45,258 nucleotides of DNA from Bacteroidales bacterium (lineage in GTDB: Bacteria > Bacteroidota > Bacteroidia > Bacteroidales > UBA10428): the NCBI GenBank assembly GCA_016936215.1, contig JAFGPL010000184.1, forward strand, positions 1-45,258, read 5' to 3'. Of this stretch, positions 1-21,659 are shown piece after piece. How positions within the stretch are numbered: the first letter of the stretch is position 1; each line of letters opens with the position of its first letter. A model generated the notes under the pieces. It had not been told where the DNA came from. It did no database searches and saw nothing but the letters and a program-made list of their open reading frames with translations. The position numbers and the translations under genes are program-made.

Positions 1-1155
1 ATTGGCTCAAGACTTGGGTACAAGTTACAGAAAAACAGTCAGTTTAAATTTCTCACCGTTTTTGCCGGTTCAGTAATCATGACATTGCTTGTATATCTCA
101 TCCTGGTTCCAATTCTTAAGTTATTCAATACAAATGGAACTGCTTATGTCGTTGATCTGCTTATTCATCGAGGTTTTATCCAGTATTTTACAGTATTCTT
201 TTTTTGGGTAATGATTGGCCTTTTAGTGGTCAACATTTTTAAAGTTCGTTTTGAACATCATGCTTTTCTGTTCGTAAAAACCGAATTGGATCTTTCTGAA
301 ACAATGGTATTCAGTGATTCTCAGTCAATATTAAAGAATATCTCTAATGAAAAATTTGATTATATCAAAGACAGTCTGATTGTCAGACGCATAAAACAAG
401 GTATGCAACGTCTTTTTAATACCCAGGATACCAATGCCTTGACAGAATATTTTAAACTTAGAAGCGAAATTGAATATGCAGAGATGGACTCTGGGTTTTC
501 GTCGGTTAAATATTTTAACTGGTTGATTCCAACCCTTGGTTTTATAGGCACTGTGCTGGGTATTGGGTTTGGAATGGCAGGTTTTGCCAATATTATTGAA
601 AATGCACAGAATTTTGCAGAGATTAAAAAATACCTCCCGAATGTTACCACCAGTCTTGGAGTAGCTTTCGATACTACTTTTCTGGCCTTGATCCTGAGCG
701 TAATCGGTATGTTCCTTACTTCTCATATTTCAAGAAAATATGGTAATTTCCTTGAAGAAATTGATTCGTACTGCCTTGATGATATCTCAAGCCGTTTTAA
801 ATTACATAGTACAATATCCGAAGATCTTAAGGATGTATTGAGGGAAATGAGGGTGGATATTGAAAATCTTCTCAATTCAAGTAGGATTGAATATGAAAAC
901 CGTCTTGAATCTATCATTATACAACTTAATGCGTTAAATACTGCAGCCGTTAGTATTAACAACAACAAAGTTGATCTTTCGGGAATAGTTTTGTTGATTA
1001 AACAACTCATTGAGAAAACCGAAACCGCCCGGGTACCAGATTTATCAGTGCACCTGAACGAATTGAATAAAGAACTCAAAAGATTCAATAACAGTTTGTC
1101 TGAAGAAAAGGAAAAAAAATCCGGAAAATCAAAGAATTCCGACATTACTGATTAA
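1..1155 (+). CDS. MotA/TolQ/ExbB-type proton-channel subunit, 5' end outside the window
   Basis: The reading frame is open from base 1, so the gene starts upstream; the ATG at 79 lies inside the first membrane segment and is unlikely to be the start. The visible 384 residues contain hydrophobic segments at about 16-38 and 60-80, a soluble stretch, and then the paired MotA/ExbB-type helices at about 172-197 (IPTLGFIGTVLGIGFG) and 210-240 (TTSLGVAFDTTFLALILSVIG). The last 130 residues are hydrophilic and helical, probably coiled coil. Known members form the ion-conducting stator subunit of flagellar, Tol, Exb and Zorya motors in the inner membrane. The next gene, 25 bases downstream, starts with an ExbD/MotB-like TM and is the natural partner. 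The gene belongs to the long co-directional run to 17032. Family assignment is confident; the specific role is inferred. Confidence 0.85.
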   Translation: MGSRLGYKLQKNSQFKFLTVFAGSVIMTLLVYLILVPILKLFNTNGTAYVVDLLIHRGFIQYFTVFFFWVMIGLLVVNIFKVRFEHHAFLFVKTELDLSETMVFSDSQSILKNISNEKFDYIKDSLIVRRIKQGMQRLFNTQDTNALTEYFKLRSEIEYAEMDSGFSSVKYFNWLIPTLGFIGTVLGIGFGMAGFANIIENAQNFAEIKKYLPNVTTSLGVAFDTTFLALILSVIGMFLTSHISRKYGNFLEEIDSYCLDDISSRFKLHSTISEDLKDVLREMRVDIENLLNSSRIEYENRLESIIIQLNALNTAAVSINNNKVDLSGIVLLIKQLIEKTETARVPDLSVHLNELNKELKRFNNSLSEEKEKKSGKSKNSDITD

Positions 1156-1180
1156 AAGTTAAGCAAAAAATTCTCCTGTC

Positions 1181-3349
1181 ATGGCACGAAGAAAAAGTGA
1201 AGAACAAAACGTATTCAGCCTGTCTTTTGTAGATGTTTTTGCTAATACCTTAGGGGGGCTTGCATTTATCCTGATGTTGGTAATATTGATGATCGGCATG
1301 AGATTTGGCATACCACGCATTAATACAGACAAACTTCCTGATGCATATGATGGGAGCCCATATGAAATATGGTTATCAGCCAATGACGGGGGTGGTCTTT
1401 ATAACTGGAAAATCGTAAAAGGAGAACTGCCCAGCGGATTAGAGATAATTAATACAAACAGTGGCCATATAAAGGGAGTACCAACCTTGAAGGACAAGTC
1501 TAAAGTTCAGGAAATATATAAATTCACAATAAAAGTTGATGTTGGTGATACTGCACTTGATAAAACAGATCTGAGGGAATATGAAATTGTGCTGAATTCC
1601 AGTCCATATGGGAATTTGAAAATCATGACCGGCAAAAAAATTCCAAAAGCTGTAATAGGATCTGAATATCCATTGGTGTTTTCTGTACAGGGAGGTAAAC
1701 TACCTTATACATGGAAAATTGATTGTCCTGGTTTAGCTGGAATTAAGATTGATGAAAACGGTAAACTAAATGGTAAAATAAACGGAGAACCTGGCAAACA
1801 AAAAATATCAGTGACAGTTCGTGATCAATATGGTAATAACGCTTCAAAAGAAGTGGAAATTGAAATTATTAAAATGCCGGAGATACCACCTCCACCGCCT
1901 AAACTTATAATTAAAACCGACTCATTGCCCAAAGCCATTAATGGACGAGGGTACAGGATAGCTTTGTCTGCAGAGGGGGGTGTTGCCCCATACAAGTGGT
2001 CGGGTTTAATAAACGGTACTAACTTGAAAATTGATGATAAAGGCTATATAACAGGGATACCTGATGCCACAGGTGAATATACTGCAAACTTTGAGGTTAC
2101 AGATAATAAAAACAATACCGTTTCAAAATCCGGAATTGAATTTACGGTATTGCCCTCCCCACGCGATAAAATTGAACCCCTTGAAATTCTTACGGAAAAT
2201 CCGCTTCCTGAAGCAATTTCGGGTAAAAATTATCAATTATTTCTTTCTGCCAGCGGAGGTACGCCTCCCTATTTTTGGAATCTTAATAAAAATCCTGAAA
2301 TCGCAGGTAGCCTAACTTTATCTGAAAATGGAAAACTATCTGCAGATTTTGAACATATAGGAGAATTCGAGATTTCTGCAATGGTGCATGACGCACTTAA
2401 AATCAGGGTTGAAAAAACCTTCAGAATAAAGGTCATCCCGTCAGTCCCTGAAATGAAAATCATGACAAATAAGCTGCCTGATGCTGTAAAAGGATTCCTG
2501 TTTGAAGGAGACCTGAGTGCTGAAGGAGGTTATCCTCCTTATGAATGGAATATTGACGGAGGACTACCAGATGGATTAATACTGGAAGGAAATAAGATTA
2601 AAGGGATACCAAAAAATGCATGGCAGGGTGAATTGGCTGTGACTATAAAGGACATTACTGGAGTAACTGCAAGAAAATCACTCGGATTCGAAATCCTTGA
2701 ATCTGGCGAAGGATCAATTGTTCATAAACTGGAAATACTTACTGATACTATGCCAACATTGCTAACTGGTTCAAATTATGATTTCTATATCGCAACTGAT
2801 GGCGGAGGTACTCCCAAAAACTGGCAAGTTGATGGCAAAATTCCCAAAGGTTTATCATTTGAAAACGGAAGGTTCTATGGCAGACCACAAAATAAAGGAA
2901 CCTATAAATTCTCTGTTAAAGTATCTGACCCTGCAGGACAGACGAAAGGTAAGGAGTATTCACTTATTGTGAGGTCGGTGGTAAATGCTTACTGGAGACC
3001 AATGGCCATAATTCTGGCAATAGCTTTAGCCTTTTTGCTTTTAATTCTTATCATAATGTTTATTCGTATCAGAAGGTCCAGAAAATTTAAATTAAGCGTA
3101 GTGACCCAATCCATCCCAAATGCTCGATGTTCATTCCCTTACAGGGTTTACCTGGCAGCAGAAGGAGGAACTCCCCCTTACAAATGGGCCCTTTCAGAAG
3201 GGAAGCTCCCCGATGGACTGGAATTAAAACCTGAGGGGATCATCCAGGGTGAACCACTTAAAGGGGTAAAACTTGATGATGTAAAAGAATATAGTTTCAA
3301 AATTACAGTTACTGATTCACTTGGCAATAGTGCCACACAACAATTATAA
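1181..3349 (+). CDS. Stator-partner-like membrane protein with seven Ig-like (He_PIG) repeats
   Basis: 722 residues. The N-terminus (about 12-40) holds SLSFVDVFANTLGG followed by a hydrophobic helix, resembling the single TM with a channel Asp (here Asp18) of ExbD/TolR/MotB/ZorB. Six repeats of about 90 residues follow, each with a 'LPxAxxGxxY...S/A-xGGxPPYxW...G.LPxGLxx...G.IxGxP' signature typical of putative Ig (He_PIG) domains. A second TM lies at about 603-630 (AIILAIALAFLLLILIIMF) with a basic flank, and a seventh repeat follows at about 637-722. If the N-terminus is inside, repeats 1-6 are periplasmic and repeat 7 is cytoplasmic. No OmpA-like peptidoglycan-binding domain is visible, unlike MotB or ZorB. 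The gene sits directly behind the MotA-like gene. The repeats are clear; the stator role is inferred. Confidence 0.8.
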   Translation: MARRKSEEQNVFSLSFVDVFANTLGGLAFILMLVILMIGMRFGIPRINTDKLPDAYDGSPYEIWLSANDGGGLYNWKIVKGELPSGLEIINTNSGHIKGVPTLKDKSKVQEIYKFTIKVDVGDTALDKTDLREYEIVLNSSPYGNLKIMTGKKIPKAVIGSEYPLVFSVQGGKLPYTWKIDCPGLAGIKIDENGKLNGKINGEPGKQKISVTVRDQYGNNASKEVEIEIIKMPEIPPPPPKLIIKTDSLPKAINGRGYRIALSAEGGVAPYKWSGLINGTNLKIDDKGYITGIPDATGEYTANFEVTDNKNNTVSKSGIEFTVLPSPRDKIEPLEILTENPLPEAISGKNYQLFLSASGGTPPYFWNLNKNPEIAGSLTLSENGKLSADFEHIGEFEISAMVHDALKIRVEKTFRIKVIPSVPEMKIMTNKLPDAVKGFLFEGDLSAEGGYPPYEWNIDGGLPDGLILEGNKIKGIPKNAWQGELAVTIKDITGVTARKSLGFEILESGEGSIVHKLEILTDTMPTLLTGSNYDFYIATDGGGTPKNWQVDGKIPKGLSFENGRFYGRPQNKGTYKFSVKVSDPAGQTKGKEYSLIVRSVVNAYWRPMAIILAIALAFLLLILIIMFIRIRRSRKFKLSVVTQSIPNARCSFPYRVYLAAEGGTPPYKWALSEGKLPDGLELKPEGIIQGEPLKGVKLDDVKEYSFKITVTDSLGNSATQQL

Positions 3350-3361
3350 TTTACAAATATT

Positions 3362-3745
3362 ATGGCAGTATGTGATATATGCAACAGCCCCGGTATGGGA
3401 ACATTAATAAGTGCAGAACAGATGAGATCGGCTGTTTTCCAGAAAGGATTCAATCCTTTTAAGTTGAAACTCGCCTCGAATTCTTATGCATTCATGGGTA
3501 TATCAGAGGATCAGACTTTTCAAAACTGGAAAAATACCATTGTGGCCCAGGATACTTCAGACTGGAATATTTGTAGCAAGTGTATGGGTGTATTGAAAAA
3601 CTATATGACATCAACCCCAAAGCCAACAGGGGTCGCCAATGCGACTGTTTCATCAAATCCTTTGATAGCAAATGCTAAAGCCCAAGAGGTTGAAAATAGT
3701 TTTAAAAAAATCGAAACAAATAAGTGGTGGCAATTCTGGAAATAG
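3362..3745 (+). CDS. Small cytoplasmic protein with two CxxC motifs
   Basis: 127 residues starting MAVCDICNSPGMG, 12 bases after the preceding stop. CDIC at the N-terminus and CSKC at about residues 74-77 form two CxxC knuckles that could hold one zinc ion. The C-terminus ends in an aromatic-basic tail (KWWQFWK) after a flexible linker, a pattern often seen in short peptides that dock on membranes or partners. No signal peptide or TM is present. The family is not recognised. Tight spacing to both neighbours places it in the operon, probably as an adaptor for the membrane complex. Confidence 0.7.
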   Translation: MAVCDICNSPGMGTLISAEQMRSAVFQKGFNPFKLKLASNSYAFMGISEDQTFQNWKNTIVAQDTSDWNICSKCMGVLKNYMTSTPKPTGVANATVSSNPLIANAKAQEVENSFKKIETNKWWQFWK

Positions 3746-3752
3746 CAGTGTT

Positions 3753-4076
3753 ATGAAAATTGAACCAAATACCGATATCGGGATGAAAGCAGTGAGTATC
3801 CTGATAAGCAATGGCAAAGTAGAACTTCTCGATGGTACCATAGTTACGGTCGAAGAATTAAACATTGAAAAAAATGCATTTTTAATTTTATGCTCTACCA
3901 TCGATCCGAATCTCAATTATATTAACGTATTAATGCCTGAACATAAAGATCAGGAAGTTTATTTTAAAGTCAGGGATATTGGCAAACAACAGGGAATTCA
4001 TGTTCAAAGCGTTACTTACCGTGCAGAAGAAGCCTGGAATTACTGGAAATTACATAAAGAATCTTACAAGAAATAA
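3753..4076 (+). CDS. Small hypothetical protein of the stator/kinase cluster
   Basis: 107 residues from the ATG at 3753 (MKIEPNTDIGMKAV), 7 bases after the previous stop. The same frame is open further upstream to 3672, but that extension overlaps the previous gene and looks like out-of-frame translation of it. The composition suggests a small alpha/beta soluble domain with no TM, no signal peptide and one Cys (residue 52, in LILCST). I do not recognise the family. Its position between the CxxC protein and the 776-aa membrane protein suggests a subunit of the same complex. Confidence 0.65.
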   Translation: MKIEPNTDIGMKAVSILISNGKVELLDGTIVTVEELNIEKNAFLILCSTIDPNLNYINVLMPEHKDQEVYFKVRDIGKQQGIHVQSVTYRAEEAWNYWKLHKESYKK

Positions 4077-4096: not shown

Positions 4097-6427
4097 ATGA
4101 AGACAGATTTAATTGAAAAGATACTTAAATCAAGCAAAAAAATTAATGTTTTAAGTTTTCCCGTCGGGATTGAAATATATCTTCTTAATCCCTTCCGCAT
4201 TTGCAACATATCTCCGGATGGAGAATGGAGCAATCTGGGAATGAAACTAAAAACCGGTTTTAACAGGTTTATTGCTTTCTCCAAAATAAAAAAGATAGAA
4301 AAAGTCCCTATAGGACCTGACAAAGAATTCATTTTAAGCGACTTTATGCAGTCAGAATTCAATAAACTGAAAGGGAATATCGAAAAGCCCCATGCCAAAC
4401 TTATCTGGAAAATATTCTGGTTGAATCATTTACAGGAAAAATACGACAAACTACCCAGAGACCTTGAGGCACTAGAAATAAAAACCATGTCGAACCATGC
4501 CAAAGCAGTCGTATATCACTTCCTTGCCATCAACGATTCAATAAAAGTCCTCGATGATCCGAAGAATAAAATTAATATTTCTTTTTGGGAAAAAGCGCTT
4601 GAGTATTGGAGCCAAACCTTTCGTGATGAAAGTTTCACAGGTGAAATAGCGGCCATTATTGAACATGAAATAAAACAGGGAAATTTCGAATTCAGGGATT
4701 ATACCATTGAAAAACTGATTAACGAACTGGTTGACGCAATTTTCAATACGGTTACCTTTATTCCATTAAAACTAATCGAACAAGACCTTAGCAGCAGCGA
4801 AGCCAACCTCAAAAGCAGGAGTCAGTGTATTTCCAAGTTCCTCGGCCTGATTCTGAAATCAGACCTGGGGAGTGAAAAAATCAGGCATGAACTTGCCAAA
4901 CAACTAACAGAGAACAAAATATCTAAAGAAGTAACTTCCCTTTTTAAAGGTATCACTTTCAAACAATGGGCAGACAAAGGTGATTACCGCAACCTGTATG
5001 ATACAGGCATGAAATTTATTGACAAAATTCACGATGCCACCAATCAACTTAAAGACGACGCACATGATAAAAATATTCATACTTCAACTTTTCTAAATGA
5101 AGTACCAAAAATACCAAGCATACATGCCCGTGTAATTGCACCCTTGCTTGAAGGTGTTGAATCATTGGAGATAGTAAATTCCCAATATGTCAGCAGGGAA
5201 ATAAAGGATAAAACCTTTTTTACACAACTGATCTTGTGCTTGAGGGTATTATCCGAACTCAATGTGGATATCCCGACAAAAGGTTCCCTGATTAAAAATC
5301 TGAACGATATCAATAAAAGATTTCTGTTCAATAAGCTTAACAAAGAACAGATAAATCTCTTGAATATTGAAAAGAGAGCACTGCCTGATTTATATAATTG
5401 TGATATCTGCGACAAATATTATCTGGCACAATATTGTTATTTTCTCAATGGAGAATTTGCCGATCCGGATGCATCGCTTTACAAAACCTTTGAGACCAAT
5501 AAAGGAATAATCAAATTCACAAATTACACATTCATACCCAGGTCAAAACTGGCAGCGGATTATCACAATTCAAAAATTTCTCTGGATGATCTCTCTTTTC
5601 ATATAAGAAATAAAACAAACAGAGAAGACCTTACTTTAAACCTTGAAAATCTAAAATCTGCTAAACCTCAATTGATAAAAGGCATAGCTGATCTTGAGGA
5701 TAAACTGAAACCATTCACCAATGAAAAAAACAAAATTGATACATTGTACTATTTAAAAAGAAAAGAACTTGCAATAAACATAAACAAAGAAAAAGAAGAT
5801 TACAGGAAAAGTACCGCCTTCCTTACCAGGATAAGGCCTCTTGAAACGGAAAAAAACAAGATTCAAGACGAAATAGATATAATTCCTGAAAAGCAGGCTA
5901 TTACCGGGCTAACCAGAAAAAAAAGTCTTCAGAATAAAATCGGTGTAACACTTTTGGTACTCTCGGTGATTTACTTTTTTGGCAGTGTAATATCATTCCA
6001 TTTCTATGGTCTTCTTGGATTAATTATTATCGGATTCTTTGGTTTACTATTTATAGGTAATAGTGAAGAAACAGCCAAAAAAATAAAAGATCAGGAACCT
6101 AAGATACAGGATAAAACTGCGAAGTTGAATAAAGATATATTAAAAATAAACAAGGAGATTGAAAGAATAGAAAAAGAAGCCGATCAGGAAGTTGAAAAAA
6201 GTTTTCAAAATGAAACTGATAAAATAAATCGGGATGAAAATACTGATATAGAGCATTTTAAATCTGTTTATGATGTTGAGAATATAGAATTTGCTATGAA
6301 TGAAATGAATAATGAACTTGAAAGGGTCAACAATGAAATTGATTCAATATCCAATTTATTGAAAAATAAAGACTTAATTAAAAATCAGCAATCAGCTAAA
6401 AATCATCCTGTTGTTACATGCTGTTAA
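4097..6427 (+). CDS. Large coiled-coil protein with a C-terminal membrane hairpin
   Basis: 776 residues, family not recognised. The first 430 residues are mixed alpha/beta with no obvious motif. A cysteine cluster (CDICDKYYLAQYC) sits at about 434-446 and could bind metal. From about 505 on the protein is strongly charged and helical, interrupted by two closely spaced TM segments at about 614-655 (LLVLSVIYFFGSVISF and LLGLIIIGFFGLLFIG). A second charged helical stretch rich in Lys/Glu (about 660-760) follows, and the chain ends HPVVTCC. Both long coiled-coil arms should lie on the same side of the membrane, probably the cytoplasm. The gene begins 20 bases after its neighbour and ends 10 bases before the GrpE-like gene. 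A scaffold role is inference. Confidence 0.75.
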   Translation: MKTDLIEKILKSSKKINVLSFPVGIEIYLLNPFRICNISPDGEWSNLGMKLKTGFNRFIAFSKIKKIEKVPIGPDKEFILSDFMQSEFNKLKGNIEKPHAKLIWKIFWLNHLQEKYDKLPRDLEALEIKTMSNHAKAVVYHFLAINDSIKVLDDPKNKINISFWEKALEYWSQTFRDESFTGEIAAIIEHEIKQGNFEFRDYTIEKLINELVDAIFNTVTFIPLKLIEQDLSSSEANLKSRSQCISKFLGLILKSDLGSEKIRHELAKQLTENKISKEVTSLFKGITFKQWADKGDYRNLYDTGMKFIDKIHDATNQLKDDAHDKNIHTSTFLNEVPKIPSIHARVIAPLLEGVESLEIVNSQYVSREIKDKTFFTQLILCLRVLSELNVDIPTKGSLIKNLNDINKRFLFNKLNKEQINLLNIEKRALPDLYNCDICDKYYLAQYCYFLNGEFADPDASLYKTFETNKGIIKFTNYTFIPRSKLAADYHNSKISLDDLSFHIRNKTNREDLTLNLENLKSAKPQLIKGIADLEDKLKPFTNEKNKIDTLYYLKRKELAININKEKEDYRKSTAFLTRIRPLETEKNKIQDEIDIIPEKQAITGLTRKKSLQNKIGVTLLVLSVIYFFGSVISFHFYGLLGLIIIGFFGLLFIGNSEETAKKIKDQEPKIQDKTAKLNKDILKINKEIERIEKEADQEVEKSFQNETDKINRDENTDIEHFKSVYDVENIEFAMNEMNNELERVNNEIDSISNLLKNKDLIKNQQSAKNHPVVTCC

Positions 6428-6437
6428 TTTTTACCAT

Positions 6438-6917
6438 ATGATACTTTATCAGAACGTTGCAGAATTCAGGTTACCTAAATCATCGGTAACCGGTTATTTC
6501 GAAGTGTTAAACCTGACACTTGAAATGGTAGAAGAATTATCGTCATTAATAAAACCAGAACGGGTTGATATTCAGGGTGATTTTTCAAATGAAGAGGTTA
6601 TAAACCTTGCTTCTAACCTTTATGCAGTAGAATCTGCAATAGGAATTGCCAGTAAAGACCCTGCGCGGTTTGATTCTTATGCACGGACGATGAATTTGAA
6701 GCTGAAAAAGCTTTATGAAATGTTTAAAAAACGTGAGATTGAAATTATAAACCATACCGGTGAGCCATATTACGACTCCATGAAAGTGGAAGTGCTTAGT
6801 TTTGACATCTCACCGATAATAAACAGGCCTACCATAACAGAAACCATTGAACCTACTGTTTATTATAAAGGTGCAATGATTAAGATAGGTAAAGTAATAG
6901 TAACTAAAAGCAATTAA
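6438..6917 (+). CDS. GrpE-like putative nucleotide exchange factor for the adjacent Hsp70
   Basis: 159 residues from the ATG at 6438 (MILYQNVAEF); an in-frame upstream start would overlap the previous gene. The middle of the protein is helical. The C-terminal 60 residues follow the plan of the GrpE beta domain: 'EIINHTGEPYYDSMKVEV' resembles GrpE's '..GEPFDPxxHEAV..', then 'TITETIEPTVYYKG' and 'IKIGKVIVTK' resemble '..GTVVEVLQKGYxLxGRVLRPAMVxV'. The match is by eye and weak in identity, but the gene lies only 4 bases before an Hsp70 gene, which makes a dedicated exchange factor plausible. It is shorter than GrpE (about 190 residues), chiefly in the N-terminal helix. Alternative: an unrelated small subunit. 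Confidence 0.55.
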   Translation: MILYQNVAEFRLPKSSVTGYFEVLNLTLEMVEELSSLIKPERVDIQGDFSNEEVINLASNLYAVESAIGIASKDPARFDSYARTMNLKLKKLYEMFKKREIEIINHTGEPYYDSMKVEVLSFDISPIINRPTITETIEPTVYYKGAMIKIGKVIVTKSN

Positions 6918-6921: not shown

Positions 6922-9816
6922 ATGAAATTAAACCTTAGAAATTACCAGGCAGGTATTGATCTGGGAACAACAAACTCAGCTATTTCAATAGTGGACCATG
7001 AAGGAATAAAAACGCTCGAGATTTCAGGCGGACAATCGCTTCTTCCTTCCTGTGTATTTTTTGGAGATGATGGTACCAGATATACAGGGGTGGAGGCAAT
7101 AAATAAACTGATCAACGATCCTAAAACTAACGGCCATCAATGGTTTAAAAGAAAAATGGGAAAAGATATCCCTTTCCCTATTCAATCATTAAAAACCACA
7201 TTGCTGGCAGAGGAACTTTCAGGAATTATACTTCAGAAATTACAACAGGTATACAGCATGCATTTTGCCGAAGACCTTCGCACTGTAATAGTTACAGTTC
7301 CTGCACGTTTCGACCTTAAAGCCGTTGATGCCACAAGAATAGCTGCAATGGGCAATTACAGGTTAAACGGTACTGGCAGGGTAAAGCCAAAAAAAGAGAG
7401 CATTTACTATGCAGACTTTATTCAGGTCGAAACCCTTATGGAACCTATTGCAGCATCACTTGCCTATGGTATGGACAGAAATGTAAAAGATAATGGATCC
7501 TGGCTGGTATACGATTTAGGTGGGGGTACTTTCGATGCTGCCGTAGTTAATTATCGCGACGGCCATATGGATGTGAAATTCCATGCAGGCGATATGTCAC
7601 TTGGCGGCCACGACTTCGACAGAAGGATGTTGCATTATATTGTTAAAAAACTTAATGAACAGTATGACCTGACCAATTTAGAAACATCTGAAAAATACAG
7701 GAATATCTGCAATTATCTTCTTTACGAAATAGAGCGTCTGAAAATTGAACTTTCGAAAGAAAAAGAGGTAATATTGAATATTCCGAACCCGGAATTTACC
7801 GATAACAAAGGCAGAGCTGTTAAAGCCCAAATCGTTATTACCAGGGAGGACTATAACCGGGAAGTTGGCCCTGTTTTTCAACGCTCGATAGAGATTTGCC
7901 TCAACCTTTTCAAAGAAAACAAGATCAAACCCTCAGAGCTTGACCGGGTATTGCTTGTGGGAGGTCCAACTCAATATCCGTTCTTTAGGGAACAAATAAA
8001 AGACCAACTAAAAATAGACTTTGATACCAGTGTTAACCCGATGAAAGCCGTAACCGTGGGGGCAGCTATTTTTGGTTCAACAAGAGATATCCCTGAAGAG
8101 GTAAAACCCGAAATAATTGAAATAATCTCAAAAACACCGGCAGACTGTCGTCTTGAAATTCATTGTCCTAATCAATCCTTCCAGGACTCAGAGATGATAA
8201 CCGGGAAAATATTATTAGAAGATAACAATTACGCTGTTGTCGAATCGGTTTCGATTTCAAGGGCTGATAAAGGCTGGGATAGCGGAGACATTCCGGTTGA
8301 TCCTACCGATGGTACCTTTGTAACAGAAGTATTTCTGAAGAAAAAGCAACCAAACACCTTTAAAGCAATTGTAAACGGAAAGGGGGGGCAACGTTTTGTT
8401 GTTTCTTCTGATGAATTTACCATCCTTCATGGTATCGGCGGCTCCATTGACCATGCCCCTTATTCTTTGAATATTACCATTAAAGGTCAAAAATGTACCA
8501 GGATCATTGCAAAAGATGCTGAATTACCAGCCGAAGGAATGAAAACTTTTTACACAGCCCGTGAAATCAGAAAGGGATCGGGTGATGACCAGGGAATTTT
8601 ATATGTTGAGCTTACCGAAGGTGAAAGTGAAAATCCTTCCGATAACATATATATCGGCACCCTTAAAATCCCCAACGATGAGTTAAGAAGAGACCTGCCG
8701 GTTGATACCGAACTGGAAATATTTGTAATGGCAAAAGCTGACAGGACGATCGTTGCAAATTGTTCCATTCCATTTACCGGACAAAGTTTTGAAGCAATTA
8801 TTGAAGTAGCCAGGACATCAGACAACAAAGATATAGTATCAAAAGAGTTAGACAACCTTAAATCAGATTATTACAGGATTAAAGAAGAAGTTGATGAAAT
8901 TGCCGATATGCAGATTGAAGCTAAATTCAACGACCTGAATGTAGATAAAGATATTGACAATATTGCAAAATTATCAGGAGAAATAATCAACAATGGAGAC
9001 AACCACCTTATGATCTCAGATATTTTGCTTAAGGTTAATGCCATGCTGACAGAAACCAAACTGAAACTCGAAAACTTTGAAAAGGAGTTTGTCTTTATAT
9101 ATACCAGGGAAAAAATTGCCAAAATGAAGCAAAACCTTGACGATAATGATGGTGAACTTGCAAATAAAATCAACCAGTTGGAAGACCAGCTTAATGCTGC
9201 TGAAACAGAAACCTCGGTTAGTAAGACAAAGGCCATTAACAAAGAGCTGTTTAAATATGACCAGAAAGGATTGGGCACTTTGTTTTTATATTATTTATAC
9301 TGCTATTGCCTTACAAAGATAAATGGCTTTGCAATCAATCTGAATGAATTAAAAGCAGAATTCGTAAAGAACTATAATCTTTTTCAGCATGCGCTTAAAA
9401 TTCAGATCATCATTGATGGATGGAATAAAGAAATTAATAATCCGTCAATCAAATGTCCCAAGCTAGGCAAATTTTTTAATCAGTTAGATCCTACGCTTCA
9501 AAACATTTATAATGAACATATTGAAAACAAAGAAAATTTCCCGATTTCAGACTATGACCTGATTGCGGAAATATTCAACCGCAACGCTATCGTATTTAAT
9601 CTTTCAATAATTGATGATATTTCAACAATTAAATATGCAAAGAAAGAGGTAATGAAGAAAGCTGTGGAGTTTGCAAAAATATATCAGCAAGGCAAGATAG
9701 ACGTTATTGACAAAAAACTCGACGAATTTTCAGGATTGTATATGATAGACCCATCGGTAAGAGGCAGTGTTGATTTGGGAGGTATGCCCGGAGGGCCGGA
9801 TATCATTTCAAGATAA
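6922..9816 (+). CDS. Hsp70 (DnaK-like) chaperone with long extra regions
   Basis: 964 residues compared with about 640 for housekeeping DnaK. The ATPase domain is intact: phosphate-1 motif AGIDLGTTNSA (about 10-20), phosphate-2 DLGGGTFDAAV (about 198-208) and the adenosine motif VLLVGGPTQYP (about 341-351). Between the ATPase domain and the substrate-binding beta domain there is an additional domain of roughly 120 residues (about 400-515). The beta domain is recognisable around 530-620 (ELPAEGMKTFYTA ... GILYVELTEGE ... IYIGTLKIP). A long helical tail of about 330 residues follows, ending GGMPGGPDIISR, which recalls the glycine-rich DnaK C-terminus. The GrpE-like gene is directly upstream and no J-domain HPD motif was seen in any neighbour. 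This is a cluster-specific chaperone, not the genome's main dnaK. Confidence 0.9.
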   Translation: MKLNLRNYQAGIDLGTTNSAISIVDHEGIKTLEISGGQSLLPSCVFFGDDGTRYTGVEAINKLINDPKTNGHQWFKRKMGKDIPFPIQSLKTTLLAEELSGIILQKLQQVYSMHFAEDLRTVIVTVPARFDLKAVDATRIAAMGNYRLNGTGRVKPKKESIYYADFIQVETLMEPIAASLAYGMDRNVKDNGSWLVYDLGGGTFDAAVVNYRDGHMDVKFHAGDMSLGGHDFDRRMLHYIVKKLNEQYDLTNLETSEKYRNICNYLLYEIERLKIELSKEKEVILNIPNPEFTDNKGRAVKAQIVITREDYNREVGPVFQRSIEICLNLFKENKIKPSELDRVLLVGGPTQYPFFREQIKDQLKIDFDTSVNPMKAVTVGAAIFGSTRDIPEEVKPEIIEIISKTPADCRLEIHCPNQSFQDSEMITGKILLEDNNYAVVESVSISRADKGWDSGDIPVDPTDGTFVTEVFLKKKQPNTFKAIVNGKGGQRFVVSSDEFTILHGIGGSIDHAPYSLNITIKGQKCTRIIAKDAELPAEGMKTFYTAREIRKGSGDDQGILYVELTEGESENPSDNIYIGTLKIPNDELRRDLPVDTELEIFVMAKADRTIVANCSIPFTGQSFEAIIEVARTSDNKDIVSKELDNLKSDYYRIKEEVDEIADMQIEAKFNDLNVDKDIDNIAKLSGEIINNGDNHLMISDILLKVNAMLTETKLKLENFEKEFVFIYTREKIAKMKQNLDDNDGELANKINQLEDQLNAAETETSVSKTKAINKELFKYDQKGLGTLFLYYLYCYCLTKINGFAINLNELKAEFVKNYNLFQHALKIQIIIDGWNKEINNPSIKCPKLGKFFNQLDPTLQNIYNEHIENKENFPISDYDLIAEIFNRNAIVFNLSIIDDISTIKYAKKEVMKKAVEFAKIYQQGKIDVIDKKLDEFSGLYMIDPSVRGSVDLGGMPGGPDIISR

Positions 9817-9838
9817 ACAATAATTTTAACAACAAAAA

Positions 9839-10501: not shown

Positions 10502-10526
10502 TCTGATTCATCTGAAACATTCAATT

Positions 10527-12101: not shown

Positions 12102-12112
12102 CAAACACTATC

Positions 12113-13600: not shown

Positions 13601-13708
13601 GGCAAAAGCCAGGGTCACCTTTACAAATTCTTATGCATTAAACGTATCTGAATTTTAAAAGTTAGATTGAACGGGCAAGGTTAGAAGACAAATTAAAAAA
13701 CAAACAAA

Positions 13709-14455: not shown

Positions 14456-14467
14456 AAGCACTACGAT

Positions 14468-16420
14468 ATGATCACCAGAACCGGATATTCCAGGTATGAA
14501 AAAAAAGACAGGATAAAAGATTTTATTGAAGTGACTGACATATTCGAAGGCGGACTTGGAAGGGTTTATATAGGATTCTGTTATAAAAGAATGAAAAAGA
14601 TTGTAGTAAAAACGATCAAAGAAGTAATCTGGGACAGATATAAACTTTCTGAAAGTTGGGATTTTTTAAAAGACTCTATTATTGAAAATGCAATTGACGA
14701 AACAAAAATTGTTCAGCTTGGAGATTATATATTACTTGCACTTTTCAGGGAAGCAAGGCTCTCATGTCAGCTAACGGGTCATATGAATCTTGTCAGCGGA
14801 CTGGATTTCTGGTGGACTGAGACAGGACAGATTTTCTATGAATGTGAGTATATCGAGAATAGCATTGATCTTGAAAAGAAATTCCAGGATATTTCAGGAA
14901 AAACTGGTAAACAGACAATCGGAGTATTTCAATCACTTCATGTAGCAATTAGTTTTGCCAATGCATTCATTTATATTAATGATGAAATAATTAAGGCATA
15001 TAACCGCTCAATTGCAAGCAATACCCAGAGAGCAATAAGCTTTGTACATAGGGACATTAAACCTGAAAATATACTTTTAACAGGTAAAAATATTCCTAAA
15101 ATAATAGACCTTGGATTATCAAAGTTTATTCTGGCCGGAGGTTCCTATTCCAATTTTATGGCTACTCCACCCAAAGCCGGGACATTCGACTATATGTCGC
15201 CCGAACAGAAAATACATTTTGATAATGTCATCCCTTCATCTGATATATATTCATTTGGAGCTACATTATACCGGATTTTGGGAGGCAACCTGCCTTCGTT
15301 AAGTCATCGCAGCAACGAAAAAAATATTGAATCCCTTCAGGGTGTTCCCGAAGAATATATGCAAATAATTAATAAATGTCTGCAGGTTAGTCCTCACAAT
15401 CGTTATCAGAATTTCAGCGAGTTGAAGAAAGATTTGGTCTGCCTGATCGCAAAAATCACGAAAGAGAAAGTTAAAATCACAGAAAACCTGCGCTGCAAAA
15501 TATGCGGATGCATACATAATACGAAAGGACGTAAGTCATCAATAGGTTTGTCCAGATCAAAATCAAAAAATGACCATCACTTTGTTACTATACCCGCAGG
15601 TGATTTTTACAAGGGATGCAAAAAAGAACACACAGATCTTTTAATAAGCAAATTCAGCCAGTATATAAGCAAATCAGGATTTAAGGAGCAATATGAAAAG
15701 GTTTTTCTTAAAGAGTTTGAAATAGACATCTACCCCGTTACCAATGCACAGTACCTGAATTTTGTCAAATCAACAGGTTACAGCCCTATTCCCGACCATT
15801 GGAACAGGGACCTGAACAATGCTTTTGATGAATCAATCGCAAACCATCCTGTAGTTTATGTATCTTATGACGATGCCCAGGCTTATTGTTCCTGGTTAGG
15901 ATGCCGTCTGCCCAACGGCGAGGAATGGGAGAAATCAGCCCGTGGTATTTCAGGCAATCTTTACCCCTGGGGCGATGTGTACTCATCGGCATATTGCAAT
16001 TCTGCAGAATCGGGACACAGAGGAACAGTTGCAGTTGGCGAATATGAGAACGGTAAAAGCCCTTATGGATGCCATCATATGGTAGGCAATGTTTCTGAAT
16101 GGGTAAATGAATCTCATCCGGATAAAAATAGTTACAAATACCTTCGTGGCGGATGCTGGGGAGATTCCTGTGAATTATTTGGGTTGCCCTTTGTACACGA
16201 TCTGGCAGTTAACTGCAATCAAAGGCATAACACATTTGGGTTCAGGATAGCGCGTGATGTAGAAAATAAATCTTCCTTAATCCTTACCGAAATAGTCCAG
16301 GAGAATGAGAGATGCCCTGTTTGCAATGGTGAACTGGAGGTATTTGATGTGTCTGAACTGAAAATTCCTGAAAATAATGTTTTTACATGGATCGGTTTCT
16401 TTGACACCAATAGTGTATAA
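14468..16420 (+). CDS. Protein kinase fused to a formylglycine-generating-enzyme-like (FGE-sulfatase) domain
   Basis: 650 residues. Kinase domain at about 15-325: glycine loop EGGLGRVYIG, lysine in IVVKTIKE, HRDIKPEN at about 195, DLG (not DFG) at about 215 and GTFDYMSPEQ. A cysteine pair (CKICGC) near 343 leads to an FGE-sulfatase domain at about 370-605 with VTIPAGDFYKGC, IDIYPVTNAQYLNF, YVSYDDAQAYCSWLGCRLPNGEEWEKSARG, YPWGD, MVGNVSEW and GFRIARD. A last CPVCNGEL knuckle lies near the C-terminus. FGE-like domains in bacteria are either true oxidases acting on cysteine or binding modules (as in DGR variable proteins and kinase fusions). Here the Cys pair typical of true FGE cannot be confirmed by eye. 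It could modify or sense a partner. Confidence 0.88.
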   Translation: MITRTGYSRYEKKDRIKDFIEVTDIFEGGLGRVYIGFCYKRMKKIVVKTIKEVIWDRYKLSESWDFLKDSIIENAIDETKIVQLGDYILLALFREARLSCQLTGHMNLVSGLDFWWTETGQIFYECEYIENSIDLEKKFQDISGKTGKQTIGVFQSLHVAISFANAFIYINDEIIKAYNRSIASNTQRAISFVHRDIKPENILLTGKNIPKIIDLGLSKFILAGGSYSNFMATPPKAGTFDYMSPEQKIHFDNVIPSSDIYSFGATLYRILGGNLPSLSHRSNEKNIESLQGVPEEYMQIINKCLQVSPHNRYQNFSELKKDLVCLIAKITKEKVKITENLRCKICGCIHNTKGRKSSIGLSRSKSKNDHHFVTIPAGDFYKGCKKEHTDLLISKFSQYISKSGFKEQYEKVFLKEFEIDIYPVTNAQYLNFVKSTGYSPIPDHWNRDLNNAFDESIANHPVVYVSYDDAQAYCSWLGCRLPNGEEWEKSARGISGNLYPWGDVYSSAYCNSAESGHRGTVAVGEYENGKSPYGCHHMVGNVSEWVNESHPDKNSYKYLRGGCWGDSCELFGLPFVHDLAVNCNQRHNTFGFRIARDVENKSSLILTEIVQENERCPVCNGELEVFDVSELKIPENNVFTWIGFFDTNSV

Positions 16421-16498: not shown

Positions 16499-17032
16499 AT
16501 GTCTTTGAACACAAAACATTTCAAATCGAAGAATGGGTCAACTGTTGTAAACATTATCAATAACGGAGGACCTATGGTAAAAATTATTGATTTTGCAGCT
16601 CTCGAAAGGGATGGATACCTTAACGGTTCTTCTGAAAGTAAAAAATCTCATCTTATTTTGGTACAACTAAGTGAAAAAGATTTAAATACACTGGATGTTA
16701 TAAAGGTGGGAAATAATCAAATTTATGCATTAAGCAGCAATAATGAAGAATGCGAAGCAATGGGAGTGGTTTATCCGGCCGTAATGCCTCCATCCTATCC
16801 GGGTGGTAGTCCGGTAAAACAAACAGTTGTTGTGGCAAAAACTGCTGAAATTAAAAAGGATGGCAATGTTACCATTAAACAGGGCGGATTGGCTCATTAT
16901 GCACAAGATGGCTACAACGGTCCTGTAACGACTTTCTCAATAAACAGTATCAGCCTGGCCATTGCATTTCCTGTAAATATAGAGTTAAATGAAATTAAAA
17001 GCCTGGTAATAAATGGAATTGAATTTAACTGA
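16499..17032 (+). CDS. Soluble 177-aa protein of unknown fold, last plus-strand gene before the inverted gene
   Basis: 177 residues (MSLNTKHFKSKNGST...), with no signal peptide, no TM and a single cysteine. The sequence is rich in Val, Ile, Asn and Gly with alternating hydrophobic residues (KQTVVVAKTAEIKKDGNVTIKQ; SISLAIAFPVNIELNEIKSLVING), which suggests a beta-rich fold. A Pro/Gly-rich link (AVMPPSYPGGSPV) divides it into two halves. The family is not recognised. The strong ribosome binding site and its position at the end of the kinase/phosphatase run suggest an abundant component, for example a structural subunit or a client of the chaperone and unfoldase. That role is inferred from position alone. 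Confidence 0.7.
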   Translation: MSLNTKHFKSKNGSTVVNIINNGGPMVKIIDFAALERDGYLNGSSESKKSHLILVQLSEKDLNTLDVIKVGNNQIYALSSNNEECEAMGVVYPAVMPPSYPGGSPVKQTVVVAKTAEIKKDGNVTIKQGGLAHYAQDGYNGPVTTFSINSISLAIAFPVNIELNEIKSLVINGIEFN

Positions 17033-17077: not shown

Positions 17078-17137
17078 AAATCCTGGTCAGGAAAAAATCA
17101 AGATTAAAATTTTTCTACCTCGGCCAGGATTTTTTTG
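17078..17137. terminator. Hairpin with T-run between convergent genes
   Basis: AAATCCTGG (17078-17086) pairs with CCAGGATTT (17124-17132), followed by further T residues. Inner bases also pair (AGG/CCT and a GAAAAA/TTTTTC stretch), so the 37-base gap is not a free loop. It would end the plus-strand operon after 17032 and may also serve the minus gene, whose last codons it includes. Confidence 0.5.
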
Positions 17138-18549
17138 TTTAAAACATCAATTTCCTCAGAACTAATTGAAATCGTAGTGTTTCCATTTTCAAAACGACAC
17201 AAATTTTTTGCAGTTTGAATGTTTTCGAGAGCTATGGTAAGAAACTGATTCCGGTAATATTCCGTATTTCCTGCATGAAGCTTCACTGTTCTGAAGTGTT
17301 GCGATTTACCTATTAATTTAACCTGGGACTTCACTAAATCAATCACCTTATCCAGCATTTCAATTTCCTGCCGGGCATTGTAAATCTTTTCCTTCAAAAC
17401 GTTGCCCGGAAACACAGAATCCGGAATTGAGCTTACTTTAAGAAGTTCATCTACCGGCTGACCTGAAAATGACAGAATTGATCCACCTGATGCAATGCTG
17501 TCAAACAGGGGTAAAGCGCTTCCAACAATTGAATCAGCATAGAGTTGACGAATATTTGAATCAAGTGTTGAAGTAATATTTTTTACATCCAGTCTGATTA
17601 GGCTTTTTTCAACCGAAAAACCATCATCTTTCAATCTGGTATCAGCTTCGTTATTAAATGATGTGGTTACATTATTGAGTTTTTCTATTATTTTGTTTGT
17701 TTCAATAAAATAGTTGTAGGGTAATTCTACATTTTTCGACCATTCCTTAACCATAATTCCGTAGTCTTCCAGTAACCTGTTCAGTTCATCCACTTTATCG
17801 GCAAGTTCAAGCTTCCTGTCAGCCCATTGTATTTTTAAAACAATAAAGGCCGATTTCTCCCTGAGTTCTCCCTGTTTCCTGATATCCAGATAATCCCACC
17901 GGCCCTGGAATTCTCTTGTTTTTTTTGAGAATATTGACTCAAGATGAATTTTTTCTACCAGGATTTTTTTAATCAATTCCCTGAAACTATCCAGGTCAAC
18001 AATGGTCGGATAGAACTCCTTTAACAGGTTGTACATATCTTCAAAATCCCTGAAATCCCTGAGATCAAGCTTGAATTTTATTCTGTCTATATCACTCAGG
18101 TAAAAATCTGTGACCTGATCAATCGTTTCATTGGCAAACAACATCTTTGCAACATTGTCAATATTGGTATCAGGAAGGTTTAGTATTTCTTTTTCAAAAG
18201 ATGTTTTCAGGCATAATATAACCGTCTGCAAAATATTTAAATGAAAAAACTCACTGCACCTTAAAATGATTATAGCCGATGGCCAGCCCGATGTTTCAAG
18301 ATATTTCTTGACTGCAGACCATTTCCCGTCAAATACCGCATTATCATCATACCCGTCTTCGGCTAAAAGCCTTATAAAATTTTCATGATCAATTGCCAGT
18401 TGCTGTTGCCTGAGTTTCCTGTTGGCAGGCCAGTATTTTTTCTGACCTGTTGTAACATAAAACCTCCAGTCATCGAGGAACTTTTCATCTTTTTTTGAAA
18501 TATCCCAGAATTCACATAAATGTTTTATATCGTGCTGAAAAAGTACCAT
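17104..18549 (-). CDS. Hypothetical helical protein encoded against the cluster
   Basis: 481 residues (MVLFQHDIKHLCEFWDISKKDEKFL...). No signal peptide or TM is seen. The sequence is mostly helical, with a hydrophobic patch near 90-115 (SAIIILRCSEFFHLNILQTVIL) and several long charged helices (VDELNRLLEDYGIMVKEW; AEVEKF at the end). Trp and Asp/Lys are frequent near the start. I do not recognise the family. It is the only minus-strand gene in the first 27 kb, convergent with the 177-aa gene and divergent from the Clp-like gene across 113 bases. Inserted here, it may be an independently controlled part of the same system. Confidence 0.7.
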   Translation of the reverse strand: MVLFQHDIKHLCEFWDISKKDEKFLDDWRFYVTTGQKKYWPANRKLRQQQLAIDHENFIRLLAEDGYDDNAVFDGKWSAVKKYLETSGWPSAIIILRCSEFFHLNILQTVILCLKTSFEKEILNLPDTNIDNVAKMLFANETIDQVTDFYLSDIDRIKFKLDLRDFRDFEDMYNLLKEFYPTIVDLDSFRELIKKILVEKIHLESIFSKKTREFQGRWDYLDIRKQGELREKSAFIVLKIQWADRKLELADKVDELNRLLEDYGIMVKEWSKNVELPYNYFIETNKIIEKLNNVTTSFNNEADTRLKDDGFSVEKSLIRLDVKNITSTLDSNIRQLYADSIVGSALPLFDSIASGGSILSFSGQPVDELLKVSSIPDSVFPGNVLKEKIYNARQEIEMLDKVIDLVKSQVKLIGKSQHFRTVKLHAGNTEYYRNQFLTIALENIQTAKNLCRFENGNTTISISSEEIDVLNKKILAEVEKF

Positions 18550-18613
18550 ACTTATAAATATTTTGTATTTAATTTCTTTAATTCAAATAGAATGATTATT
18601 TTGAACCTTGTAA

Positions 18614-18621: not shown

Positions 18622-18662
18622 GTTAGTTGATTGATAATATGGTAAAATAACATCTAGAACTT

Positions 18663-21011
18663 ATGGACACTATTTCAATAGGTATAAACTGGGCATGGAT
18701 TATTGCTGCAAATGAGGCTGTTTTTTGTAAAAGTACATTAATTGAACCCGAACATCTGCTGCTTGGTATTTTTAAAATCACCGATGCATCAAAAGATCTG
18801 GACAAATATATACCAGATTTGGAACAGAATGAAAAAACCCGGATTATTGCCGAGACCAAACCTTTATTGTACATACTCGAGCAGGAAAACAAAATCAGGT
18901 TGACCGAGCTTCGCAGAAGTATACGGCTTGTAATTCAGAAACAGGGAAATCAGCCCGCTAAGGAGCAGGTTAACCGGTCGGAAGAAACCAAAAAAGTGTT
19001 TGATAAGTTTTCCAACTATATTGATTTTAAAGGAGTGCCCCCTACCCTGAATCTTTTTCTTCTGGTAATATTTACAGAATATTTCAAACGTTTTAATGAA
19101 TTATTATCCCCTTACAATATTGACATCAATAAAATAATAAATGATCTTAAAAAGGGAGGAAACCAGCCGGAATCGAAAACCAAACCTGCAGGAAAAGATT
19201 TTTCTCAATTTGGAAGAAACCTTACGCAACTGGCACTGGAAAATAAACTTTCGGAAGCCATAGGACGGGATACTGAAATCAGGGAGCTTGGCAGGATTTT
19301 ATTGCAGAAAACAAAGCCGAATGCTTTGATAATCGGTGAAGCCGGAGTCGGAAAAACAGCCATTGTGGAATCGTTTGCAATCATGTGCGCCAAAGGCAAT
19401 GTGCCTGAAGGTTTGAAGAACAGAACGATTTTCGAACTTTCCATCTCCTCTTTAATAGCTGGAGCAAAATACCGGGGTGACTTCGAAGACAGGTTAAATA
19501 CTATACTTCAGAATGCCATCCAGAATAACATTATCCTTTTTATTGATGAGTTTCACAATATTATGGGGGCAGGAGGCGGTAGCGACGGGTTAATGGATGC
19601 CTCGAATATTTTAAAACCGTTTCTGGCCCGAGGCGATATCCAGTTAATTGGTGCAACCACCATAACCGAATATCGCAAATATGTGGAAAAAGATGCAGCT
19701 ATTGAAAGAAGATTTCAACTGGTTCATATTAATGAGCCAGATGTTTCCCAGACCATCAGCATATTAAAAAGACTTATCCCGGATTACGAAAATCACTATA
19801 AAGTAAAAATTTCACAAGAGGCAATAGACGCGTCTGTTAAACTTTCCATTACCTATCTTCCTGCTCTTCGTTTGCCTGACAAAGCAATCAGTATTCTTGA
19901 AAGCGCCTGTTCAAGAAAACTTTTTCCCTCGGTAATAATCGGCCAGGATGACGATGAAGGTATAATGTTTAAAGCTATCGAAACAGAAGTAACAGAAGAT
20001 GATGTTTTTAAAGTTATATCAAAAAGATGTAATATCCCTGTTGAGATTTTGAATAGTAAAAATTCTAATAAATTTCTTGAAATAGAGAAACTCCTAAAGT
20101 CAGATATAATTGGCCAGGATCAGGTTATGGATGAAATTGGAGAAACAATAAGAATGATAGAAGCAGGTCTGGGTGATCCGGGAAAACCAAAAGCTGTATT
20201 TTTATTTGTCGGGCCTACAGGGGTTGGTAAAACAGCTACTGCAATTTCGCTTGCCAGACACTATTTCGGAAGCGAAAACAATCTTTTAAGGTTTGATATG
20301 TCGGAGTATCATGAAAAGCACCATATTGACAAATTCATTGGCGCACCTCCCGGGTACATTGGCTCTGAAGATGAAGGATTATTGATTAAAAAGGTCAGGA
20401 CAAATCCGACCAGTGTTGTTCTTTTTGACGAAATCGAAAAAGCACATCACGAAGTTCAGGATATTTTTCTCCAGATTTTGGATAATGGCATTTTGACTGC
20501 TTCAAATGGCAGAACTGCCAGCTTCAAAGACTGCGTAATTATTTTCACCAGCAATCTTGGTACAGTTAATAAAAAACAACCAAAAAAAGTTGGATTTAAT
20601 ATCGTTGATGAAGCAAAAAAAGGCCATAATATCTCTGAATCTGACACAGGATATATAAGTGCTGTAAACTCTTACTTCAAACCAGAATTTATTAACCGTC
20701 TTAATAAAATTTTAATATTTAAAAGGATAGGTAAAAATGAAATAGGGATAATTATTGATAAACTTATTAACGAATTGAACCGGAGATTATTAAAAGACAA
20801 AATATCAGTTGTTTTAAATGAAAATGCAAAAGACTTTATCATCGAAAATGGATATAATGAAGAATACGGAGTAAGACACCTTTCAAGAACCATTGATAAA
20901 GAAATAGCTGCACCTATAAGTAAAATAATTCTTGTAAAGAAAATTAAGAATACAATTATTAAAATAAATCTGGTGAATAAAATATTGAATTTTGAGACAG
21001 AGCCAATTTAA
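18663..21011 (+). CDS. ClpA/ClpC-like double AAA+ unfoldase
   Basis: 782 residues. The N-terminal part contains a Clp_N-like stretch ([11 protein letters not shown]). AAA-1 has Walker A GEAGVGKT at about 224-231, Walker [10 protein letters not shown] near 291 and the arginine-finger region [11 protein letters not shown]-2 has Walker A GPTGVGKT near 516, Walker [11 protein letters not shown] near 585 and sensor segment IFTSNLG, followed by a D2-small domain. No long ClpB-type middle coiled coil lies between the two ATPases. A VGF tripeptide at about 643-645, where ClpC and ClpA carry their ClpP-docking [IVL]-G-[FL] loop, suggests coupling to ClpP, not ClpB/ClpV-like disaggregation alone. It is divergently arranged from the minus gene. 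Housekeeping clpC is possible but the low similarity and position make a dedicated unfoldase likely. Confidence 0.9.
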
Positions 21012-21065
21012 AATAGAATGAAGTAAGAATGTTATCTTGTTCAAAAACAAATATTTTAATCTAAT

Positions 21066-21659
21066 ATGAATATGAAAATTACAAATCAAATCAGGCTGGC
21101 AGTAATATTTTGTGCGGCAATTCTCATACTTTCACAACTTGCTTATATCATTGACTCAGTCTTCAATCTGCCTTCTTTTAAAGAGAATGAAAAACTGGTA
21201 AATAATTTAATTTTATTTTTTTGCGGAAGTTTTATTATATATGTTTTTTCAGTGTACTCACGTATGAAGGGTATCAAAAACCTGGCTAATGTTTTCCTGG
21301 TACTTTTGGCATTGAATATAATCACTGTTTTATTCAATATGTTTATTGCCAGTAAATTAGAATTGAACCCAAAATTAATCGTTACAGTTTATAAGCTAAT
21401 TAACCTTGTCAAAATTATTTTATTGGTGACAATAATTGTCAACGCTTCTCAAAGTTTCACTTCTCTTGTAAAGGGTTTGCAAAGTATAAAAGGGTATGCT
21501 ATTACATTATTAATTGCAAATTTAGTGGGTTTATTAGTCTCTCTGGTTACTTTTAAATCTGGGGCATCAATTTACTTAGTGATATTTCCAATACTTTTTA
21601 TCATACCATATATTTTTGTTATTATATTCGGAACACAGATAAAGGAAGACACTATTTAA
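21066..21659 (+). CDS. Small multi-pass membrane protein
   Basis: 197 residues with about six hydrophobic segments: 10-30 (AVIFCAAILILSQLAYII), 46-63 (LILFFCGSFIIYVFSVY), 74-96 (LANVFLVLLALNIITVLFNMFI), 104-125 (VYKLINLVKIILLVTIIVN), 140-165 (GYAITLLIANLVGLLVSLVTF) and 169-190 (SIYLVIFPILFIIPYIFVIIFG). Only short loops and a charged tail lie between. The family is not recognised and no catalytic motif is visible. It begins 54 bases after the Clp gene and could be the last member of the cluster or unrelated. Confidence 0.65.
   Translation: MNMKITNQIRLAVIFCAAILILSQLAYIIDSVFNLPSFKENEKLVNNLILFFCGSFIIYVFSVYSRMKGIKNLANVFLVLLALNIITVLFNMFIASKLELNPKLIVTVYKLINLVKIILLVTIIVNASQSFTSLVKGLQSIKGYAITLLIANLVGLLVSLVTFKSGASIYLVIFPILFIIPYIFVIIFGTQIKEDTI

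Follow-up and report, generated by a model that had tools for sequence, protein, structure and literature searches.

What is encoded by a 16-gene block in which a putative ion-motor pair stands together with an Hsp70, protein kinases, a phosphatase and a Clp unfoldase, and do these parts belong to a single system? The block occupies positions 1–21659 of the window, by which we mean the whole stretch of 45,258 nucleotides analysed here (Bacteroidales bacterium, contig JAFGPL010000184.1 of assembly GCA_016936215.1). We found that it is a sporadic, laterally acquired island, not a chance grouping, and that a conserved five-gene core (PP2C, MotA, Ig partner, FHA kinase and kinase-FGE fusion) recurs on an unrelated contig. 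Judging from the neighbourhoods of related stators, chances are about even that the island is a mobile, phosphorylation-gated, stator-containing candidate conflict system, most likely directed against phages. Gene calling gave 16 plausible genes (g01–g16), 15 on the forward strand and one on the reverse strand, with intergenic spacing of 4–113 bp or short overlaps, in agreement with an earlier note on this DNA that had described a tightly packed cluster running in one direction. The domains that the note had named were all recovered by Pfam or, for GrpE, by a profile of partner proteins. Genes lie on the forward strand unless stated otherwise.

The boundaries of the block could be placed on both sides. 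The last 87 bases of another contig of the same genome (C105) are identical to window positions 1–87, and the start codon of g01 is found there, 18 bases upstream of window base 1. It is preceded by 400 bp of non-coding DNA and then by a divergent flavin adenine dinucleotide (FAD) oxidase gene, indicating that no cluster gene is missing upstream; the check for genes before base 1, which the earlier note had called for, thus revealed the start of g01 and nothing more of the cluster. The block begins with the MotA-like g01 and ends at 21659, ahead of a Ptb/Hbd/Ack operon. In three relatives of the same family (G012, G007 and G005), the oxidase gene and Ptb are direct neighbours, 217–237 bp apart with nothing between them, and in the Bacteroidales bacterium genome they are separated by ~22.3 kb. 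The flanking genes are 62–64% (oxidase) and 74–80% (Ptb) identical to those of these relatives. Moreover, mean guanine-cytosine (GC) content is 35.7% in the block versus 41.3% on each side. The empty site in three relatives and this contrast in GC argue against a chance grouping. Four further relatives carry different genes at or near the oxidase-Ptb junction, and the kinase-FGE gene g12 was present in 0/323 other order-level and 0/324 other class-level genomes. Direct repeats of at least 10 bases were not found at the block ends. The adjoining operon (21924–27175) comprises genes for phosphate butyryl/acetyl-transferase, 3-hydroxyacyl-CoA dehydrogenase and acetate/butyrate kinase, the Ptb and Ack types each occurring twice, and the junction upstream of it is a variable spot within the family.

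The first two genes encode the stator pair. The product of g01 (1–1155) is a MotA/TolQ/ExbB-type stator A subunit with four transmembrane (TM) segments and a C-terminal helical tail (Pfam MotA_ExbB, 6.5e-9; PADLOC ZorA2, 6.4e-9). That of g02 (1181–3349; He_PIG, 3e-42; TM 26–44 and 610–628) is the B subunit, in which a first TM segment bearing Asp18 is followed by Ig repeats, predicted to be periplasmic, a second TM segment and an Ig domain, predicted to be cytoplasmic. Asp18 and Gly25 are invariant in 10/10 aligned B subunits. In Zorya, the corresponding type of residue (ZorB D24/D21) lies packed on the ring formed by ZorA, and defence requires it (PMC11890865); from its position, Asp18 of g02 is presumably equivalent. 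A MotA-like g01 next to a g02 with a conserved membrane Asp bears out the ion-motor pair proposed in the earlier note. A profile of the B-subunit TM segment gave no meaningful match against the PDB. The window thus has a MotA-like gene and, close to it, the gene of a B subunit whose TM segment shows an SxxD...G signature, a feature that we used to recognise related loci, here called signature stators. The periplasmic part of the aligned B subunits varies: it consists of Ig repeats in the window and in L061, L074, L085 and L045, of a VWA domain in L040–L042, and of another beta domain, neither Ig nor VWA, in L043 and L044. In L045 (1456–5198), the signature stator pair has one Ig domain and adjoins a CHAT-protease/FGE fusion, possibly forming a minimal sensor with an effector protease.

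The remaining core genes are g10 (12113–13600), encoding an FHA domain, a Cys-rich linker and a Ser/Thr kinase (FHA, 5.4e-9; Pkinase, 9.8e-48), the PP2C phosphatase gene g11 (13709–14455; PP2C, 1.3e-18), and g12 (14468–16420), encoding a Ser/Thr kinase fused to an FGE-sulfatase-like domain (Pkinase, 5.2e-20; FGE, 1.1e-39). We scanned 84,980 genomes with a MotA alignment and re-annotated the resulting loci. Among the matches listed, one, the 6.2-kb contig L061, was clearly related to the core; its gene order is PP2C, MotA, B-Ig, FHA kinase, kinase-FGE, and its operon is cut by the contig end on both sides. Its products are 40% (PP2C, over 141 amino acids (aa)), 27% (MotA), 42% (best Ig stretch), 40% (FHA kinase, g10) and 50% (kinase-FGE, g12, full length) identical to those of the window. 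This contig (JAMOPD010000382.1) is labelled as belonging to a Thermococcaceae archaeon metagenome-assembled genome; its genes resemble bacterial ones and it is probably a misbinned bacterial contig.

The association of the stator with phospho-signalling also recurs beyond this relative. A search with g01 of 395 Bacteroidota genomes returned six genomes besides its own with a match at E ≤ 1e-8. Five of the six matches belong to operons that also encode PP2C and FHA proteins as well as VWA or trypsin-like proteins, and four of these operons contain kinases, too, in the stretch examined; the sixth match adjoins a CHAT-FGE protein. When the ten signature-B-subunit loci were considered (window excluded), PP2C was found in 7/10 and PP2C with a kinase in 6/10, compared with PP2C in 0/107 comparison loci (8 cyanobacterial ones with a stator, 71 with another MotA gene from the MotA-alignment scan, 8 with Ptb and 20 with Hsp70); the two sets were sampled differently, and the result is an association, with no clean null. 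Linked PP2C and Ser/Thr kinase genes are present in the window as well. The earlier note had proposed phosphorylation control, and the link between stator and phospho-signalling is indeed a recurring one. Most verrucomicrobial and deltaproteobacterial MotA matches were set aside, PP2C with a kinase being found in 0/71.

The neighbourhoods of stator relatives were used as a guide to function. Exactly three of 72,556 plasmid records matched g01 in tblastn at E ≤ 1e-6. On Anabaena pANACY.03, a type III-B Cmr operon is followed by a further gene and, 79 bp past that gene, by the start of the MotA gene; a viperin-family gene lies ~5 kb beyond. The operon on the conjugative Rhizobium plasmid pRlBT01d consists of kinase, PP2C, FHA, MotA, signature B subunit and kinase genes; MkoB, GajA and GajB, all full-length, lie 9–13 kb upstream of MotA. 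On Microcystis p1, the stator is placed after genes for an N6-methylase, a 2TM effector and a helicase. The CRISPR arrangement was encountered again in a chromosomal cyanobacterial locus, L103 (Cas10b, 1.2e-274; Cmr4; two Csx1-type genes), which L122 resembles in arrangement by sequence. In Bacteroidota, L040 is flanked by a full-length Ppl gene (6.5e-161) and a PDC-S15 gene.

Two of these settings deserve a closer description. The Rhizobium leguminosarum megaplasmid locus (L169, 494–25405; NZ_CP125637.1) contains a stator together with a pair each of PP2C, FHA and kinase genes near the Gabija genes and MkoB. In the cyanobacterial loci (L170 on pANACY.03, 8402–14550; L103, 1–12503; L122, 1–12533), a MotA/TolQ/ExbB gene and two small membrane proteins directly follow type III-B Cmr and Csx1-type genes; the small proteins have 153 aa and 231–236 aa, the second carrying a SFLDILTNTVGVL TM signature. 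Possibly, this MotA trio serves type III-B CRISPR as an accessory module that has so far escaped description.

Several observations weigh against a defence function. The flanks of the island itself are core metabolism genes and not a defence island. In L094, L108 and L114 the cyanobacterial trio occurs with no CRISPR genes adjoining the stator, and L043, L044 and L045 have no clear defence neighbours among the proteins scanned. The defence-linked stators are 27–32% identical to g01 (27–29% for the plasmid relatives). It should be noted that large plasmids often carry defence genes, so that three out of three plasmid matches are suggestive and not proof. No recognised nuclease or other known effector was detected in the island, and Hsp70/GrpE, Clp and VWA-FHA genes were not found together with the core in other loci. 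Overall, defence is the function best supported by the neighbourhoods, and we would give it roughly a one-in-two chance.

The last of these points raises the question of whether all 16 genes belong together. The modules concerned begin with g06 (6411–6917), a GrpE-like partner of Hsp70 that fell below the cut-off with Pfam (GrpE, 2.1e-4) and is supported by a profile made from the GrpE-like partners of related Hsp70 loci (1.7e-9; hhalign, 93.8%). The adjoining g07 (6922–9816) encodes an Hsp70 of 964 aa (HSP70, 2.5e-62), ~30% identical over residues 9–760 to ~830-aa Hsp70s of Bacteroidota and plasmids, many of which have a GrpE-like gene directly upstream. On a Haliscomenobacter plasmid, Hsp70 with a GrpE-like gene adjoins bacteriophage exclusion (BREX) and TerB genes; a Shewanella plasmid has such a pair beside a Tn7-like element, and several Bacteroidota carry it as well. 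The family is also found in ordinary chromosomal places, and it is therefore no proof of defence by itself. In L014 (8345–15870), L015 (14621–25950), L007 (7565–16472), L046, L047 and L048, we noted a cassette of an 'NPFR' helical protein, a GrpE-like protein and the ~830-aa Hsp70, often with a kinase (AAA-fused in L007) and a TerB-like protein, and on plasmids beside BREX and a Tn7-like element. In L160 (8697–14706) and L162 (8590–14607), a long Hsp70 gene and a 97-aa GrpE-like gene adjoin gldL/gldM/gldN-like genes of the gliding/type 9 secretion motor, as judged by eye.

The second module is g15 (18663–21011), a ClpA/C-type unfoldase with two Clp AAA domains (AAA_2, 4.5e-54; ClpB_D2-small). 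The AGF loop of ClpC docks ClpP. An insertion in g15, VGF at residues 643–645, aligns with this loop at a place where ClpB has a gap, and for this reason partnership with a protease is likelier for g15 than a role as a ClpB-type disaggregase. From its position, it may serve the stator core. The earlier note had read the Hsp70 and the unfoldase as signs of assembly or disassembly, a role that stays conjectural.

The island could thus be composite, the five-gene core being one system and Hsp70/GrpE, the Clp unfoldase and some orphans being separate cassettes at the same site. L061 holds the core without Hsp70, GrpE or Clp between its two contig ends, and its genome bin gave no match to the window Hsp70 or VWA-FHA protein, so that the extra modules are no more than putative members of the system. 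Moreover, Hsp70 with its GrpE-like partner is an independent unit in the settings described above, and g15 is preceded by g14, the only reversed gene. Set against this, g01–g13 are co-directional with tiny gaps or overlaps, Hsp70/GrpE lies between the stator and the signalling genes, and GC is fairly even along the block. We consider a composite origin possible but rather unlikely. A second full copy of the cluster, sought through g05 and the kinase-FGE gene in relatives, the order, the class, a second phylum, plasmids and viral contigs, was not found, one of these searches having been run without a positive control. The earlier note had treated all parts as one machine, a view that the data do not support, only the core having been found to recur; its proposed survey of other genomes gave a split outcome, with the core kept on L061 and Hsp70/GrpE, Clp and VWA-FHA absent from the core's company elsewhere.

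The other island genes add one further recognisable protein and several orphans. The product of g09 (10479–12101) has a signal peptide, a VWA domain with a DxSGS motif, a TM segment (263–281), an FHA domain and a C-terminal Cys-rich finger (VWA, 3.5e-17; FHA, 1.1e-11), and that of g08 (9839–10501) has a TPR-like N-terminus (weak TPR matches), a TM segment (103–121) and a coiled coil. Two small orphans are g03 (3362–3745), Cys-rich with a CxxC...CxxC pattern read from the sequence and with no Pfam match or plasmid relative, and g04 (3672–4076), whose true start possibly lies within the open reading frame and which has no Pfam match. The 776-aa product of g05 (4097–6427) is helical, with one TM segment near the C-terminus between coiled coils; no cluster-type relative was found in 99 genomes, on plasmids or in viral contigs. 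Weak matches of g05 to LMBR1 and influenza HA2 were rejected as coiled-coil/TM similarity only, and a relationship to the 'NPFR' proteins that precede GrpE-like/Hsp70 genes elsewhere was also discarded, the two being colinear with no significance (hhalign P 0.03, probability 1.7%) and hidden Markov models giving no support. Neither g13 (16499–17032; 177 aa; no Pfam match) nor the helical g14 (17104–18549, the sole reverse-strand gene; 481 aa; no Pfam, NCBIfam or PDB match) has a plasmid relative, and single-sequence structure models of both were uninformative (predicted local distance difference test score, 38). The final island gene, g16 (21066–21659), encodes an orphan with six predicted TM segments and no Pfam match.

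Flagella, type 9 secretion, gliding and Ton uptake are all driven by ion motors of this superfamily (PMC11890865), and Ig and VWA domains would fit adhesion. Furthermore, signature stators occur on their own (L074 and L085). The island might in that case be a physiological envelope system, in which the motor and the VWA/Ig proteins serve to monitor or drive a structure on the surface or a process in the cell wall, with phospho-control and chaperones acting in quality control. Against this stand the lack of any surface-structure, secretion or cell-wall gene among the island genes in Pfam, the sporadic distribution with insertion at a junction otherwise empty, and the plasmid stator relatives, all of which lie in defence neighbourhoods. 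We regard such a system as improbable. Of the two options in the earlier note, defence or an envelope machine, the former gained support from the stator-relative neighbourhoods and the latter is still conjecture.

Returning to a conflict system, we infer a possible mechanism from what was observed: the genes present, their placement in an island, the invariant Asp, the ClpP loop, the recurring core, and stators linked to PP2C/kinase and defence genes. It is suggested by the predicted topology, in which the sensing parts are periplasmic, the signalling parts cytoplasmic and the ion-conducting pair bridges the two. Here, g01 and g02 would together make a MotAB/ZorAB-type ion channel in the inner membrane. 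The g02 Ig loops, along with the VWA domain that g09 places in the periplasm, would sense or grip a disturbed envelope, the presumed target being a phage. Ion flow or torque would reach the cytoplasm via the g01 tail, the cytoplasmic Ig domain and the FHA domains; the two kinases would be switched on and PP2C would reset them. Hsp70/GrpE and the ClpC-type unfoldase might reshape marked proteins or pass them on to the ClpP of the host. The effector could be one of the orphans g05, g13, g14 or six-TM g16, since none of the remaining products suggests an activity that would kill or block.

Among motors of the flagellar type, Zorya is the well-studied example of a role in immunity. It is conceivable, although we hold it doubtful, that the island represents a new immune class in which a phosphorylation-gated ion motor works with an Hsp70 of its own and an unfoldase that docks ClpP, and in which Bacteroidota/Rhizobium phospho-islands share one stator family with cyanobacterial type III-B CRISPR loci. 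If this stator family does serve defence, motors would be immune modules of wider use, in which both the sensors in the periplasm (Ig, VWA and other beta domains) and the outputs in the cytoplasm (kinase/phosphatase relays, type III CRISPR) could be exchanged. An ion-driven membrane sensor would also be a candidate input for the kinase/PP2C/FHA/VWA genes of defence islands.

Finally, that the island is a divergent member of Zorya, TerY-P, a type VI secretion system (T6SS) threonine-phosphorylation cluster or a GAP1-type GTPase system is very improbable and largely refuted by missing parts, despite the likenesses set out below: judged by defining features it is none of these, as each comparison fails in at least one. 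PADLOC (run on ten island proteins, the six small or orphan ones being left out) and NCBIfam have no model for the whole cluster and gave generic kinase, PP2C, Clp/AAA, Hsp70 and ZorA-type matches only, so that, with Pfam, the combination fits no named system, as the earlier note had stated. No description of a stator with Hsp70/kinase/PP2C/VWA modules was found in a literature coverage that mostly excludes subscription journals. Like Zorya, the island has a MotA-type A subunit with a cytoplasmic helical tail, matching the ZorA2 model, and a B subunit whose N-terminal membrane Asp is invariant; however, g02 carries Ig repeats between two TM segments instead of a peptidoglycan-binding OmpA-like domain and matches no ZorB model, the island adds kinases, a phosphatase, Hsp70 and Clp, and ZorC, ZorD and ZorE had no Pfam match in any island protein and no PADLOC match in the ten scanned.

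VWA, PP2C and kinase occur together in TerY-P (PMC11090510), as do g09, g11 and g10 in the island. In TerY-P the kinase bears a zinc ribbon (or OB-fold) at its C-terminus. In contrast to TerY-P, the g09 VWA protein is membrane-anchored, has a side predicted to be periplasmic and carries an FHA domain, the CxxC pairs of g10 lie between FHA and kinase with no C-terminal zinc ribbon found after the kinase, and a stator and a second kinase (kinase-FGE) are added. A kinase, PP2C, FHA protein and Clp-family ATPase recall T6SS threonine phosphorylation (kinase, PP2C, FHA and ClpV), whereas g15 is of the ClpA/C type with a ClpP loop, missing in ClpB; sheath, baseplate and membrane-complex genes had no Pfam or NCBIfam match in the block. 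The unnamed operons L040–L044 and L169 have the same stator family with PP2C, FHA and kinases, but the periplasmic part of their B subunits is a VWA or other beta domain, and no Hsp70 or Clp gene lies in the stretches examined. No TRAFAC GTPase or GAP1 was among the island Pfam matches at E ≤ 0.05, and the passages of Kaur et al. 2020 (PMC7159879) considered here mention no stator for the GTPase-centred GAP1-N2 conflict systems. According to that paper, HSP70+GrpE and kinase+PP2C+vWA are separate themes of these systems; the island shares both, which makes the GAP1-N2 systems the nearest published precedent that we found for mixing such modules.

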